From Oscillatoria sp. FACHB-1407 (GTDB taxonomy: Bacteria > Cyanobacteriota > Cyanobacteriia > Elainellales > Elainellaceae), in assembly GCF_014697545.1 (NCBI RefSeq), contig NZ_JACJSA010000001.1, positions 496,001 through 560,000 of the forward strand: a DNA stretch of 64,000 nucleotides, in the 5' to 3' direction. Shown piece by piece: positions 20,265 to 42,758 of the stretch. The notes below the pieces were generated by a model. That model saw only the letters and a program-made list of their open reading frames with translations. It was not told where the DNA came from and did not search any database. Each line of letters opens with the position of its first letter. The first letter of the stretch is position 1. The translations under genes and the position numbers were made by a program.

Positions 20265-22532
20265 TTATCGCACAATTTCACCCATATAGTTACCCCAAAG
20301 TTCAGCCGCTTGAGCACTTGCCCCTGACGTTGGGGTATTGTCATCATTTCCAAACCATATTCCAGTAACAATGTTGCGATTGGGAATATAGCCAACAAAC
20401 CAGAGGTCGCGATTATCGTTATTGGTCCCTGTTTTACCCGCCTCACCCAGGCCCAGATAGGCGTTACGCCCTGTGCCATTGCGGATGACTCCCTGAAGCA
20501 GGTCAGTCATAGTGCCTGCAATTCTTGCATCTAAGACAGGAACATTGATTTGGGGGTCGGTCGCGATATCGTAAATTACTCGACAGGTTTCAGGGTTATT
20601 GGGGTCAGTGCAGTCGCTGCTGTCCAAAATTCGATTAATTGCATGGGGACGGTTCCAGTTGCCGTTGTTGGCTAGCGTTCCGTAGGCTCCAGTCAACTCC
20701 AGTAGGGTCACTTCGCTCTGCCCTAATACGAGTCCGGGCACCGGATTGAGTTCAGATTGAATGCCCATCCGATCAGCCATATTGACAACCTGATTTAGCC
20801 CCACATCTTGAGCCACTCTCAACGCAACCACGTTTTCTGAAAGAGCTAGACCCGTGTCTACATCCATACTGCTGACTCTGGAGCGGCACCCCTCAAACAC
20901 CTGTCCACCCCACTCCAGGTCATCGCAGGAGTAGGATCGACCCGGAGAGATGCCCTGCTCGATCGCCGCTGTGAAGGCAAACACCTTAAACGTCGAACCG
21001 GGTTGGCGTAGAGCCTGGGTTGCTCGATTAAACTGGCTCTCCTGAAAGTTGTATCCCCCCACCAGGGAGAGCACACCCCCTGTGCTGGAGTCGAGTGTCA
21101 CCAACGCTCCTTGCGAGAACCCAGCAGCGGCTCCATTATTGTCGATCGCCGCTTGTAGAGAAGTCTCTGCGGTCGTTTGAAAGCGAGGCTCTAGCGTACT
21201 TTCAACAATGAAATTGCCCTCTTGAGCAAGCTCCTCCCCCAATAGCGTTTCTAACTCGTCAAAGACGTAGCTATAAAAGTAGGGAGCAATCGTGCTGCGC
21301 AATTCTTCAACAGCAGCAGGGTTAATTTCAATGCGCGATCGCCTTGCCCGTTGTGCCTCTTGAGCCGTGATCATGCCCTGTGCTGCCATACGGTTGATAA
21401 TGCGATCCCGTAGCTCTACTGCCGTGTCGTAGTCTTGCACCGGGTTAAAGGCATTGGGAGCAGGTAGAATACCCACCAGCGTCGCCGCCTCAGAAATCGA
21501 TAAATCACGTGCTGACTTACCAAAATAGAACTGTGCTGCATCCTCAAACCCATAGGTACCATTACCCAGATAGACACGGTTGAGATACATCAATAGCAAA
21601 TAGTTCTTGCTGTAATAGGTTTCTAGCTTGAGAGCGACAACTGCTTCCCGCAGCTTGCGCCCCGCTGAATCTTCGGTGCCAACATACTCCCGAAAAATAC
21701 TCCGTGCCAATTGCTGGCTGATAGTGCTTCCACCTTCCCGGATCTCACCCCCTCGAATATTGGTCACCAGGGCACGCAAGATACCAATCGGATCAATGCC
21801 CAGGTGCCAGTAATAACGAGAGTCTTCAGAGGCAAGCACTGCCTGAGGCAAATAAGGGGAGAAATCTGATAACCGTTGCATCTCAATATGGGCACGGTTG
21901 CGCGGCTCACGTAATGGAGTCTGGCGATCGCGTGCATAGACCACCACCGGACCTTGAACCGATTCTGGCAACGGATACACCGAAAAGCGTTGCCCCTGCA
22001 CCCCCACCCAGAGCCCCACCAGAGCACTCACCCCGGTAAAACCATACAGCCCATACCGAAAAACCTTGGCATACCAGGGAGGTGGATCGACGTACCGCAA
22101 CTGCACAGAAGCTGCCAACTCCGGCGGTCCTAAAGTCAACACATCTCCGTGTCGTAGCTCCAGGGTATTGAGGCGGCGTTTGCCACGGTAGATGCCATTG
22201 GTGGAATTTTCGTCCTTGATTAAAAAGGGAGTATTCCGTCCTCCCATGCGCGTCAGGGAGAGGTGAACCTGACTGACAACGGGATTTCGCACCACAATGT
22301 CACAGGATTTAGAACTGCGCCCCAACACATATCGCTCTCCCAAAAGCGGATAGGTTTCTGCTTTAGGTGACTCTGCCTCTTGCACCAACAGTTCTGGCAC
22401 TCTCGCATTAGGCTTGAGAATCAGTTTTGAGAAGTTGATCTTTGCCTGAACCGTTTGAACAGCCTGGGTAATGACGTTCAACAGAGTTTTGGGTTGATTA
22501 GGGGGTTGAGGAGGCGTTTGGGGTGGGGTCAT
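20265..22532 (-). CDS. Class A penicillin-binding protein with N-terminal FHA domain
   Basis: A 755-residue bifunctional peptidoglycan synthase. Residues about 60-145 form an FHA phosphothreonine-binding domain (VLGRSSKSCDIVV, STNGIYRG). A membrane helix follows at about 160-180, then a GT51 glycosyltransferase domain (EDSRYYWHLGIDP, GGSTISQQLARS) and a transpeptidase domain with active Ser513 in PGSTFK and the KTGT box (GEAGKTGTNN). The FHA domain faces the cytoplasm, so wall synthesis may be tuned by Ser/Thr kinases; the kinase at 35.1 kb is one candidate. Single gene. Confidence 0.95.
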   Translation of the reverse strand: MTPPQTPPQPPNQPKTLLNVITQAVQTVQAKINFSKLILKPNARVPELLVQEAESPKAETYPLLGERYVLGRSSKSCDIVVRNPVVSQVHLSLTRMGGRNTPFLIKDENSTNGIYRGKRRLNTLELRHGDVLTLGPPELAASVQLRYVDPPPWYAKVFRYGLYGFTGVSALVGLWVGVQGQRFSVYPLPESVQGPVVVYARDRQTPLREPRNRAHIEMQRLSDFSPYLPQAVLASEDSRYYWHLGIDPIGILRALVTNIRGGEIREGGSTISQQLARSIFREYVGTEDSAGRKLREAVVALKLETYYSKNYLLLMYLNRVYLGNGTYGFEDAAQFYFGKSARDLSISEAATLVGILPAPNAFNPVQDYDTAVELRDRIINRMAAQGMITAQEAQRARRSRIEINPAAVEELRSTIAPYFYSYVFDELETLLGEELAQEGNFIVESTLEPRFQTTAETSLQAAIDNNGAAAGFSQGALVTLDSSTGGVLSLVGGYNFQESQFNRATQALRQPGSTFKVFAFTAAIEQGISPGRSYSCDDLEWGGQVFEGCRSRVSSMDVDTGLALSENVVALRVAQDVGLNQVVNMADRMGIQSELNPVPGLVLGQSEVTLLELTGAYGTLANNGNWNRPHAINRILDSSDCTDPNNPETCRVIYDIATDPQINVPVLDARIAGTMTDLLQGVIRNGTGRNAYLGLGEAGKTGTNNDNRDLWFVGYIPNRNIVTGIWFGNDDNTPTSGASAQAAELWGNYMGEIVR

Positions 22533-35107: not shown

Positions 35108-36973
35108 ATGTATTGTTTCAACTCGCGCTGTCCAAAACCTCAAAACCCTGAGAAGTCGCGGTTTTGTCAAAGCTGCGGGGCGAGGTTGTTGTTGGGCGAT
35201 CGCTATCGGGGCTTTAGTGCGTTGGGGGGTGGCAATTCCAGTCGCACGTTTTTGGCATTGGATACGAAGCAGTTGCTCGATCCACGACGAATTGTAAAGG
35301 CGTTTACTCAGGCGGATGATGAGGTCGCAGCAGAAAAGTTGCGGCGAGAGGTCGCGCAGTTAGCCGTAATCAGCGAACATCCACAGTTACCGGATTTGTT
35401 GGCTTACTTTGAGCGCGATCGCCAACAATTTGTGGTGCAGGAATTTGTGGAGGGTCGCCACCTGTTGCACCAGTTAGCAGAGGAGGGCTGTTGGGATGAA
35501 GCCCAAATCTTACAACTCCTGCGAGAAGTCTTACCTGTTCTGCAATTTCTCCATGACCACCAGATCATTCATCGGGATGTAAAACCTGCGAACTTGATCC
35601 GACGAGGCAATGGAAAGCTGGTATTAGTCGATTATGGGGCAGCTAAAGTCACCTCTCAATCGACGCTGGGTAAAACGGGAACGGTGATGGGCAGTGCTGA
35701 ATATGCAGCCCCAGAGCAACTGATTGGTAAGGCGGTGTTTGCCAGTGATTTGTATGGGTTGGGTGTCACCTGCATTCACCTATTGACGGGGCTGAATCCC
35801 TTTGATTTATATAACAGTGCTGTGGGAGCCTGGTTTTGGCGTAGTGCAGCGGGAGAGGTGAGCGATCGCCTTACTAAAGTGATCGACAAACTGTTGCAGA
35901 GTTCTTTGAGCCAACGTTACGGTTCGGCGGCTCAGGTATTAAAGGATCTGGATATGGTGAGTGCGTTGGTCAGCCCATCGGTCAGTCCTGCTGAGGCAAT
36001 GGCACAATTTCAATCTGCCCCAAATCAACAGTGGGATGCGTACACCTTCACCCCTCCGATCGCCCCTCCTCAAGCTGGCATGAATGCTCTGGTGTTTGAC
36101 CCGATTCACCAAGTTCTGATTAGCGGTGATAACAAGGGCACCGTGAACCTGTGGAATATTACCAATCAGGAGCACTTGCAGACTTTAATTGAAAATCAGC
36201 AAGCACTACAAAGCCATTCCTCCCCTGGAGCGATCGCCACGCTTGCCCTTAGCCCCGATGGAGAGGTAGTTGCGGCTGGAGGTTGGGATGACGCCGTTCG
36301 AGTGTGGAATCGTCAAACGGGTCAGTTATTGCATACGCTTTCGGGGCACCGTGCCGATGTTACTTGCATCGTGATGCATCCCAACGGACAGCATGTGATT
36401 AGCGGCAGTCGAGACAAGACGATACAACTATGGGACTGGCAGACAGGGGAATCCCTGCTCTGCTTTAAGGGGCACAAGGCAGCAGTTGAAGCGATCGCCC
36501 TCAGTGTCAACGGTCAACGACTCGCCAGTGGGGATGCTCAGGGAGCCGTCAAGATCTGGCATCTGGGCACTCAGGAGTTACTGCGAACCTTACCGAGTCA
36601 TGCCGCCGCGATTGGGGCGATCGCCCTCCATCCTGACAACGAAACCGTCATTAGCAGCGGGTGGGATATGGCAGTGCAGGTTCGTAACCTCCGCACGGGA
36701 GGGGTAAAACACCTCCTCAAGGGACATCTCCTTCCAGTCACGTCACTCAGCATCAGTCCAGACGGCAAAACTTTGGCAACGGGAAGCCATGACAGCACAA
36801 TTAAATTGTGGGATTTGAGCCAGGGCAAGCTAATCAGCACCCTCACTGGACATACTGCTGCGGTAGAAGCGATCGCCTTCTTGTCCGATGAGGTTATCGC
36901 TAGTGGTAGTCAAGATGGCACGATTAGAGTTTGGAGAAAAGTTGAGGTTTGGTCAGCAGTCAATGGTCAATAG
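35108..36973 (+). CDS. Ser/Thr protein kinase with zinc ribbon and WD40 repeats
   Basis: A 621-residue cytoplasmic protein. A Cys4 zinc ribbon (Cys3, Cys8, Cys20, Cys23) comes first, then a Hanks-type kinase (about 28-290) with the catalytic loop IIHRDVKPAN and metal-binding DYG instead of DFG, and seven or so WD40 repeats (about 330-615; FKGHKAAVEAIALS, ISGSRDKTIQLWD). It could phosphorylate FHA-domain partners; the window encodes three FHA proteins (PBP1, FHA-zinc, FHA-flavoprotein). The C-terminal seven residues and stop codon come from the start of a heptamer array, so the original 3' end was overwritten. Confidence 0.93.
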   Translation: MYCFNSRCPKPQNPEKSRFCQSCGARLLLGDRYRGFSALGGGNSSRTFLALDTKQLLDPRRIVKAFTQADDEVAAEKLRREVAQLAVISEHPQLPDLLAYFERDRQQFVVQEFVEGRHLLHQLAEEGCWDEAQILQLLREVLPVLQFLHDHQIIHRDVKPANLIRRGNGKLVLVDYGAAKVTSQSTLGKTGTVMGSAEYAAPEQLIGKAVFASDLYGLGVTCIHLLTGLNPFDLYNSAVGAWFWRSAAGEVSDRLTKVIDKLLQSSLSQRYGSAAQVLKDLDMVSALVSPSVSPAEAMAQFQSAPNQQWDAYTFTPPIAPPQAGMNALVFDPIHQVLISGDNKGTVNLWNITNQEHLQTLIENQQALQSHSSPGAIATLALSPDGEVVAAGGWDDAVRVWNRQTGQLLHTLSGHRADVTCIVMHPNGQHVISGSRDKTIQLWDWQTGESLLCFKGHKAAVEAIALSVNGQRLASGDAQGAVKIWHLGTQELLRTLPSHAAAIGAIALHPDNETVISSGWDMAVQVRNLRTGGVKHLLKGHLLPVTSLSISPDGKTLATGSHDSTIKLWDLSQGKLISTLTGHTAAVEAIAFLSDEVIASGSQDGTIRVWRKVEVWSAVNGQ

Positions 36974-40214: not shown

Positions 40215-42155
40215 TCAGGGTGCCTGATTCGCTACCCACTTCACCCATTGCAGGAGCGATCGCCCCCCATTCAATGATTTCAAGCCAGGAGCACGAGCCG
40301 CAACGAGGCTATCGACCGATTGCAGAGCGGCGTATTGCAATCCCAAAAAGCTATCGACAGCAGCATGGGGGCCTCCCAGCGTAATGGCTCCTGCCGCGTA
40401 GAACCGTCCTGGGTTCGTCCGCATCTCCGCTAACTCAAAGTCGTTGGCAACGGTGAGACGACCCAACGGGTTCACAGGCAGGTTGTAGTGAGTGAGCAGG
40501 TCATCCAGTAGGGGACTGTTTTTCACCTTGGCATCCATCCCCGTTGCATCAATGATGAAGTCTGCCTGGAGTTGAATTTTGCCCTTAAATTCGCGTTCCT
40601 GAATGGTGGTAATCGTGCCCTGATCCGCCTTTTCAACCATCTCGACTTCGCCAAACACGATCTTGTACCATCCCTGTGCTAACCCCTGCCGGACGATCGC
40701 CTGCCAGTCGCGCCGATCGGCAGTGGTCGTACCACCCCAATCTGCCAGCAACCGCAGTCGTTGTTGCGGATCAGCGGCTTCAAGCAGAGCACGCAACTCT
40801 CCACCCCAACAAGCTTTAGGCCAGTTAAAGGGTTGCAGTTCGTAGTGGTGTTTGACCAACCGTTGAGCATTGCCAAAGCGATTGCCCTGAGGTTTAGGCG
40901 ATCGCATCAGATGTAATACCGAGATCTTAGAGTTACGCTGACGAGCTTCGTGCAACCGCTGAATAACACGCGAGGCAACGATCCCCCGCCCCCGAATCAG
41001 AACCGTTCCGCCTTGCTTTTCGAGGGTTTCGTACACCGAATCGTGAGGCTCATAGGCGTTGATGACGCACTTAAAATCTCCCGTTTTTTCCCGGTAGGCT
41101 TGCAGATCCGGGAGAAACTGAATGGCAGGATATCCGGTCGCCAGATGCACATAGCGGGCAATCACAAAGGCATGATCGCGACGATTCGCCGTAGAGCGAG
41201 AATAGGCGATCGCATAGCGTCCATCGTCGGTTTTGCGAATGGCTCGCACCCGCCCATAGCGAAAAATAGCATTCCACCCAATGCGGTCTACCTCCCGGTC
41301 AATCGAGGCAAAGACGTTTCCAGAACGAGGCGTGTAAGTTTCTGCCAGCGTTGGCTCACCGAACACTTGCCAGAGATATTTCAGCGCAGAATTGATCTTG
41401 CCCTGACGAAAGTCGTGCCACGCTTCCCGGAAGGCATAGCTGGGAAAACCCCAAATATTGTCGGGGCAAGAGTCCGAGTTCGATCGCAACCGTTCGTGAT
41501 AGGGAATTTGGGAATTCAAACAGAGTTGCCGATAACGCGCATAGGGCTTTTCCTCCATGCCGATCGCCGCAATTTGCCCTGGACTGGCTCCACACAATCG
41601 CAACAGATCAACCCAGATAAAACTGCCCAACCCTGCCCCGATCGCCACATAATCAAATTCCTGCATCGGCAAACCCAAATCCATCAACTGATGCAGCGAT
41701 ACCAGAGGTGCCTGAAACTGCGGTGGTGGAAAGTTGGGTTCCGTAATCGCAGCAGGGGGTGCCGGGGTAGGATTGCCCGTCTCCGGGTGAAACAGAATGG
41801 TCGAATCAGCAACTGGACTGGCAACGAGGCGTGATGTCAGGGAAACCGTGAGGTGATAAGGCCCAATCTGAATCACATCGCCATTGGTAATAAAACTGCG
41901 GTTTTGGCGAGTGCCATTGACGAACGTGCCGTTGCTGCTGGTTTGGTCAGTGATCACCAGACCAGAACCATCTGCTTCGATCAGCGCATGGAAGCGGGAC
42001 ACCTGACCACTATCCAGCACAATTCGCGACACCCGCTGTTCATTCAATGCAACAGGCATTCGGGCAAACTCACGCCCCAGCGCAATCGGAACAGTAAAAG
42101 TGGGCGATCGCCGCTCCCCGGTTGCTGGGTCGTCCCAAGTCAACTGAATTTGCAT
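40215..42155 (-). CDS. FHA domain fused to an FAD-dependent oxidoreductase
   Basis: A 646-residue fusion. Residues about 20-110 form an FHA domain (QVSRFHALIEADGS, SSNGTFVNG). After a Pro-rich linker (PTPAPPAAITEP) comes a two-nucleotide-site flavoprotein: FAD motif DYVAIGAGLGSF, a family-like GFPSYAFREAW region, a second dinucleotide motif VLIRGRGIVASRV, and a closing FYAAGAITLGGPHAAVDSF. The flavoprotein half resembles N-hydroxylating or lysine/ornithine monooxygenase-like enzymes only loosely. The FHA domain suggests phosphothreonine-dependent recruitment or control. It lies 42 bases downstream of a second FHA gene on the same strand. Substrate unknown. Confidence 0.85.
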   Translation of the reverse strand: MQIQLTWDDPATGERRSPTFTVPIALGREFARMPVALNEQRVSRIVLDSGQVSRFHALIEADGSGLVITDQTSSNGTFVNGTRQNRSFITNGDVIQIGPYHLTVSLTSRLVASPVADSTILFHPETGNPTPAPPAAITEPNFPPPQFQAPLVSLHQLMDLGLPMQEFDYVAIGAGLGSFIWVDLLRLCGASPGQIAAIGMEEKPYARYRQLCLNSQIPYHERLRSNSDSCPDNIWGFPSYAFREAWHDFRQGKINSALKYLWQVFGEPTLAETYTPRSGNVFASIDREVDRIGWNAIFRYGRVRAIRKTDDGRYAIAYSRSTANRRDHAFVIARYVHLATGYPAIQFLPDLQAYREKTGDFKCVINAYEPHDSVYETLEKQGGTVLIRGRGIVASRVIQRLHEARQRNSKISVLHLMRSPKPQGNRFGNAQRLVKHHYELQPFNWPKACWGGELRALLEAADPQQRLRLLADWGGTTTADRRDWQAIVRQGLAQGWYKIVFGEVEMVEKADQGTITTIQEREFKGKIQLQADFIIDATGMDAKVKNSPLLDDLLTHYNLPVNPLGRLTVANDFELAEMRTNPGRFYAAGAITLGGPHAAVDSFLGLQYAALQSVDSLVAARAPGLKSLNGGRSLLQWVKWVANQAP

Positions 42156-42197
42156 AGGGATAGGGTTTAAAGGAATGGATCTAACTTCACTCGCCCA

Positions 42198-42758
42198 CTA
42201 CTTGTCTCCCGGAATCATCAACACACTGGCCGCAGCGGCTAACGACGTACCACACCAGGGACACCCCGACCCCAGGCGATCGTAAGGCGATACCTGCTGA
42301 CACTTGGGACACATCAAGCCATAGCTGGGCGTTTGAGGCTTTGCCGGAGGATAGGCGGTGGGTGCAGTCGCAGTTGCAGTTGCAACAGTTTGGGCGGGTG
42401 GTACGATCACGGTTTGGGGCACCGAGCCAAGGGCGATCGCAGTCACCTTTAACTCAACTTGCCCCAGGTAGAAGCTCATCCCCTTTTGTAACATCACCTC
42501 TCCTTGTGTCAACCGCTGCCGATTGATCACTGGAGGATTAGTGTCGCGTAGATTACGTAAAAAGAACCCCTGGCGCGGCACATCAAAAAAGATTTCAACG
42601 TGCAATCCCGACACTGTTGGGTCTGGAAGGATCACATCACATCGGACAGGATCGCGCCCAATTCGGGTTGTTCCAGGATTTTTTGTGGGGCGATGGTCAT
42701 CCAGGATTTGCACCTTGGCTTTACCCGCTTCCACCCATTCCAGTGTTAATTGATTCAT
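42198..42758 (-). CDS. FHA-domain protein with C-terminal zinc ribbon
   Basis: A 186-residue protein. An FHA domain fills about residues 15-105 (IGRDPVRCDVILPDPTVSG, NPPVINRQRL). After an Ala/Pro-rich linker comes a Cys4 zinc ribbon (MCPKCQQ ... GCPWCGTSL). It resembles FraH-type cyanobacterial proteins with the order of domains reversed, so the gene name is not given. It is the first gene of a leftward pair with the FHA-flavoprotein, and together with the kinase at 35.1 kb suggests a local phosphothreonine circuit. Confidence 0.85.
   Translation of the reverse strand: MNQLTLEWVEAGKAKVQILDDHRPTKNPGTTRIGRDPVRCDVILPDPTVSGLHVEIFFDVPRQGFFLRNLRDTNPPVINRQRLTQGEVMLQKGMSFYLGQVELKVTAIALGSVPQTVIVPPAQTVATATATAPTAYPPAKPQTPSYGLMCPKCQQVSPYDRLGSGCPWCGTSLAAAASVLMIPGDK

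Follow-up and report, generated by a model that had tools for sequence, protein, structure and literature searches.

The window analysed here, a 64,000-nucleotide stretch of the Oscillatoria sp. FACHB-1407 genome (8.13 Mb in 66 contigs), carries on its minus strand two adjoining genes for FHA-domain proteins: an upstream gene we call P and, 42 bases further on, a gene we call F, in which an FHA domain is joined to a predicted flavoprotein (Table 1). An earlier note, made from the sequence alone, had singled out this fusion, its FHA neighbour, a WD40 Ser/Thr (Hanks) kinase some 3 kb away and a third, PBP1-type FHA protein at 20-22 kb, and had suggested that a phosphothreonine signal controls redox chemistry at this locus. 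The fusion is confirmed, and the other genes lie where the note had placed them; the interpretation built on them is partly supported.

Table 1. Genes and features of the window (residue numbers refer to the encoded protein)
Feature	Position	Strand	Basis
F, FHA-flavoprotein fusion, 646 aa	40215..42155	-	ORF, Pfam FHA match, conservation
Pfam-matched FHA part of F, residues 41-98	41862..42035	-	PF00498, E 1.3e-14
Predicted flavoprotein half of F, residues 152-646	40218..41702	-	Motifs, model fold
GAGLGS, FAD-type dinucleotide-binding motif, residues 173-178	41622..41639	-	GxGxGS kept
INAYEPHDSVY, at FMO-fingerprint place, residues 365-375	41031..41063	-	Motif kept
GRGIVAS, second (NADPH-type) dinucleotide motif, residues 389-395	40971..40991	-	GxGIVAS kept
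C-terminal Trp-containing helix of F, residues 633-646	40218..40259	-	Invariant residues; role inferred
P, FHA protein with zinc-ribbon-like tail, 186 aa	42198..42758	-	ORF, Pfam FHA match
FHA domain of P, residues 31-99	42462..42668	-	PF00498, E 5.1e-12
Zinc-ribbon-like Cys pattern of P, C150-C169	42252..42311	-	Cys conservation
WD40 Ser/Thr (Hanks) kinase	35108-36973	opposite to F	Seven WD40 stretches
PBP1-type FHA protein	20265-22532		Transglycosylase, transpeptidase and N-terminal FHA domains

The FHA domain of F matches PF00498 with 54.8 bits against a cut-off of 20.7, and is in frame with the flavoprotein half in all 120 further F loci (L033-L152); in one F match (G320) the contig start cuts the gene ahead of the point where fusion would be visible. 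Some genomes occur in two collections, and removal of identical F sequences left 115 of the 120 loci, on which the counts of distinct loci below are based. No curated Pfam or NCBIfam model covers the fusion, which is thus not the widespread annotated family that it might have been. Nor are its phosphothreonine-binding residues missing: of 41 F proteins compared, all have R28 (just ahead of the stretch matched by Pfam), S53, H56 and N80, and 40 have N75. Conserved Arg, Ser, His and Asn residues of this kind hold the phosphothreonine in FHA domains. Such a signal may control F. Conservation is nevertheless higher in the flavoprotein half, where 30% of positions carry a single residue in at least 97% of the 41 sequences, versus 11% of FHA positions. 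PDB sequence matches of the FHA domain include GarA and OdhI, which have an FHA of the same kind but are separate small inhibitor proteins, whereas that of F is fused to its enzyme.

P is a conserved neighbour of F. Its own FHA domain (46.5 bits against the same cut-off of 20.7) keeps G34, R35, S50, H53 and N74 in 13 of 13 P proteins. Of the 110 distinct loci with room for it, 98 have the P gene ahead of F in the same orientation, and P is among the recurrent neighbours in 31 of 41 F loci. The zinc ribbon that the earlier note had read in its tail stands as a C-terminal cysteine pattern (C150 and C166 in 13/13, C169 in 12/13) and not as a recognised family, every match to Pfam zinc ribbons falling below cut-off. 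Orthologues of P scoring at least 164 bits, the lowest match counted, were found in 40 of 292 cyanobacterial genomes, all of which have F, and 7 of the 47 F genomes are without it. Three genomes (G085, G241, G087) were not counted since the profile matched nothing in them but frames of 371-424 aa, which scored 86-95 bits; the matches in G019, G024, G042 and G172 span the FHA part only.

The flavoprotein half (the C-terminal 495 residues) gave no significant Pfam match and no PDB sequence match, whether searched singly or as a profile, and F as a whole has NCBIfam matches below cut-off only, a single one of which falls outside the FHA part. Its identification as an FAD-dependent oxidoreductase, as the earlier note had it, is therefore upheld by motifs and by a model fold typical of redox flavoenzymes, and not by significant sequence similarity to a known family. 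Among the 120 other F loci, GxGxGS is read in 116 and GxGIVAS in every one, and in 119 the latter is closely preceded by [V/I]x[A/G][Y/F]xxHxxxY, whose place presumably corresponds to that of the fingerprint FxGxxxHxxxY/F of flavin-containing monooxygenases (FMO); relative to that fingerprint, the F family has Val or Ile for Phe, and mostly Ala for Gly. From these motifs and the model, F is predicted to bind FAD and NAD(P)H. Cysteines are sparse: in an alignment of 25 F sequences only columns 212, 230, 315 and 449 keep Cys in at least 8 rows, and the CxxC redox pair of thioredoxin reductase is absent. C230 is present in all 25 cyanobacterial rows and is Arg in the single relative from Nonomuraea (see below), so that with its addition the family has no invariant cysteine; this and the lack of a conserved CxxC pair argue against dithiol reductase chemistry. 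At the other end of the protein, S633, W637, W640 and P646 are invariant in 25 of 25 sequences, and the Trp-containing helix they mark is possibly a membrane-facing tail.

The structure prediction that the earlier note had proposed for this half was run with AlphaFold2 on 25 sequences, and is of moderate quality (mean pLDDT 77, pTM 0.67), a strongly conserved stretch at about residues 222-237 being modelled at pLDDT below 50. Foldseek places SidA, PvdA and a lysine N6-hydroxylase at the top (E ~1e-15, 10-15% identity, TM by target up to 0.70). VIA-align 2 of the predicted model ranks YpdA highest (Z 22.3, rmsd 2.7) with 308 of roughly 480 residues aligned, close to PvdA (Z 21.2, rmsd 3.5, 372 aligned); flavin-containing monooxygenases and thioredoxin-reductase-like proteins come next. 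F therefore appears to share the fold of the N-hydroxylating and flavin-containing monooxygenases as well as that of YpdA/Bdr and thioredoxin reductase (TrxR)-like proteins, and has an FMO-like His/Tyr motif, with the Phe replaced, ahead of the NADPH-type motif; that its family as a whole keeps no redox Cys may set it apart from YpdA. Because monooxygenase and YpdA/TrxR-like folds are all among the top matches, the model supports a fold class and not an activity.

An FHA domain on a flavin monooxygenase has a precedent. Zeaxanthin epoxidase belongs to a different flavoprotein class (group A) from F, and no FAD_binding_3 domain was among the matches of F at E 1. Excerpts of PMC11429058 and PMC2483416 describe the plant and algal epoxidase as carrying a C-terminal FHA domain, and its diatom counterpart as having none. 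The FHA domain of F is N-terminal; since both its position and the class of flavoprotein differ, the fusion in F is independent of zeaxanthin epoxidase, although joining an FHA domain to a flavin monooxygenase is not a novel idea. Among the open-access papers retrieved, no title or abstract opening shows the cyanobacterial fusion, and neither this family nor its membrane partner turned up.

The flavoprotein half occurs in 47 of 292 cyanobacterial genomes and 28 of 116 genera, and the fusion is thus not a chance event. Copies from other genomes are 48-72% identical to that of the window, and their distribution is patchy: in a search of 40 near relatives, the window's own genome included, 11 have one. 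In the scan of genome contigs the best 80 of 300 relatives were taken, all 80 cyanobacterial. F is co-inherited with P and with a second partner, a small membrane protein that the earlier note had missed and that we call M: 46 of the 292 genomes have M and all of these have F, while a single draft (G278) has F without M. Across the 292 genomes, log10 p is -52 for F with M and -42 for F with P, and -27 for F with M when counted by genus, kinship being ignored in each case. Three genomes (G174, G255, G284) have two copies of F and two of M, which split into the same two groups. In a comparison of 40 F-M pairs drawn from 42 F and 44 M sequences, M group B (support 0.996) and F group B (0.943) consist of the same 13 members, although in the rooted M tree group A does not form one clade. 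An anti-phage role was considered and rejected, as none of F, P, M and the F of Nonomuraea has a PADLOC match at E 0.01, and no relative was confirmed in viral contigs or found in phages (the latter with the Nonomuraea F as query). Carriage on plasmids was likewise rejected, because the only match in 72,556 plasmid records is a chromosome-sized record of Nonomuraea.

M (about 140-144 aa) is likely the partner of F. It is a recurrent neighbour in 32 of 41 F loci. Of 113 distinct loci with enough sequence, 45 have M downstream of F, in the same orientation and no more than 700 bases away; a limit of 4.5 kb takes in 67 of the 95 loci that reach so far. In the genome of the window M is unlinked to F and lies on a different contig (G000:C25:100033-100452, 66% identity to the query). 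Its model (mean pLDDT 82) has four long helices, at residues 5-30, 39-64, 71-92 and 104-129. Basic residues are found at the N-terminal end (net +2.0), at the C-terminal end (net +3.5) and in the middle loop, where net charge is near 0; as its ends are basic, both termini are probably cytoplasmic, the membrane topology as a whole being predicted from model and motif. In one locus (L064:7179-9386) the second F copy of G255 is joined in frame to M, giving a 735 aa product. We do not take this as functional proof of a partnership: the C-terminal part of F is lost and an intact F is present elsewhere in G255, which suggests a deletion.

The earlier note had proposed to look for the same fusion in other phyla. 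The one relative of F found outside cyanobacteria came from the plasmid collection and belongs to Nonomuraea gerenzanensis (Actinomycetota), at 39% identity over 98% of the flavoprotein half. This 505-aa ORF is not fused to FHA, and a profile of F FHA domains finds none within the 25.4 kb around it. Directly after it comes a relative of M (40.7% identity), which, read from a TTG, starts in overlap with the TGA stop of F; since the frame is open further upstream, that start is itself an estimate. An F without FHA followed at once by M suggests, judging by this one genome, that flavoprotein and M form the older unit, to which FHA and P seem to have been added in cyanobacteria.

We propose that F is a membrane-associated flavoenzyme acting with M, and that its FHA domain and P couple its assembly to threonine phosphorylation by Hanks kinases, a reading to which we give a roughly even chance. 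F would be an FAD- and NAD(P)H-dependent enzyme of class B monooxygenase/YpdA-like fold that works with M, the older of its partners, on the cytoplasmic side of the membrane. The FHA domain at its N-terminus and the upstream P would both have been gained in cyanobacteria, and phosphorylation of threonine by one of the Hanks kinases would decide when or where F assembles. On the model, F probably acts as an oxygenase. Monooxygenase rather than reductase chemistry, physical contact of F with M and dependence on phosphorylation are each what we infer. Hanks kinases are abundant in cyanobacteria, and to our knowledge the targets of most of them are unknown. If true, the proposal would provide a kinase-to-redox connection in cyanobacteria that is open to test, centred on a conserved enzyme, of a family without Pfam or NCBIfam model, that carries its own putative reader of phosphothreonine and is inherited together with two partners, and that is perhaps switched on or placed at the membrane by protein kinases.

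A more specific version, that a Hanks kinase phosphorylates Thr2 of M and the FHA domain of F or P docks there, bringing the FAD/NADPH enzyme to the membrane, is a long shot. The N-terminus of M, M-T-P-T-L, is a candidate docking site by its probable cytoplasmic location and its invariance, T-P-T-L being present in all 87 cyanobacterial copies that could be read (duplicates included), and we take it to be a pThr-x-x-Leu site of the sort FHA domains prefer. From its putative TTG start the Nonomuraea M, whose F has no FHA domain, reads I-P-T-L, with Ile before P-T-L; this is a single contrast.

Two readings compete with the proposal on its separate parts. F might instead be an electron-transfer reductase, so that electrons from NADPH would enter the membrane by way of M and reach, for instance, quinone. 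YpdA and TrxR-type ferredoxin-NADP reductases are among the close folds, and the latter work without a cysteine pair, so the lack of an invariant Cys in F is compatible with this; in the window's own genome, moreover, M is followed by an FAD/NAD(P) oxidoreductase (Pyr_redox_2, E 2.4e-49; L163:9715-10926). We nevertheless consider it somewhat unlikely, given that the FMO-like His/Tyr motif is so widely kept, that cyanobacterial M has a single conserved His (29/29), which the Nonomuraea protein lacks, and that the model of M has no fold match in the PDB at E 0.001, hence no known quinone or haem fold. The second reading concerns the FHA domain, which would serve as a constitutive protein-protein adaptor independent of phosphorylation. 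FHA domains can also bind without phosphate, and that of P has -NP- where -NG- is usual; against this stand the invariant binding residues of F and P described above and at least 11 kinase matches in each of the 47 F genomes, which together make such an adaptor rather doubtful.

That F is a siderophore-type N-hydroxylase, acting on ornithine, lysine or a diamine, is very unlikely. SidA and PvdA are its best Foldseek matches, and together with DfoA they share its overall fold and two dinucleotide-binding sites, but F is only 10-16% identical to them, is fused to FHA and has a membrane partner, which would not be expected to be co-inherited with such an enzyme. We rejected this identity because the family profile Lys_Orn_oxgnase (PF13434) remains below cut-off (3 of 25 members matched, best E 0.15); no siderophore gene was recognised among the recurrent neighbours, inspected by eye and partly scanned.

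The functional link to the WD40 kinase implied by the earlier note is not supported. Excerpts of PMC2176072 describe WD40 kinases as common in cyanobacteria. Of the 115 distinct loci, 9 have a kinase no more than 6 kb from F, observed with one kinase as phmmer query (divergent kinases may be missed), against about 5.5 expected from the kinase density of the window's own genome or 8.1 from a density of 6.5 kinases per Mb, itself a rough assumption from per-genome counts over the best ~43 scored candidates. Kinases near F are accordingly recurrent but not conserved neighbours, and we rejected the WD40 kinase as a dedicated regulator of F, an extremely unlikely role in spite of its distance of 3.2 kb, of a kinase gene that directly follows M in L049 and L067 and adjoins F in L033, and of a kinase within ~9 kb in 10 of 41 F loci (the window included), since the count within 6 kb is near chance, the gene is on the opposite strand with three genes between (an aminotransferase and two we take to be RimM-like and TsaB-like) and the genome has 36 kinase matches in 8.13 Mb, besides 14 FHA matches.

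Several other genes recur in these neighbourhoods. An endonuclease V gene is found upstream of P, often adjoining it, in 18 of 41 F loci (one member scanned). Near M, 8 of 41 loci (L056-L060, L062, L064, L071) carry a gene with a weak YHS-domain match, below cut-off, whose product has by eye a lipoprotein-like start; all 8 are without P there. A GDSL/SGNH hydrolase gene lies ahead of M in 11 of 41 F loci and in L164, L165, L168 and L172, keeping its place even at loci where M and F are far apart (one member scanned, the rest assigned by likeness), and may in some lineages belong to the module as well.
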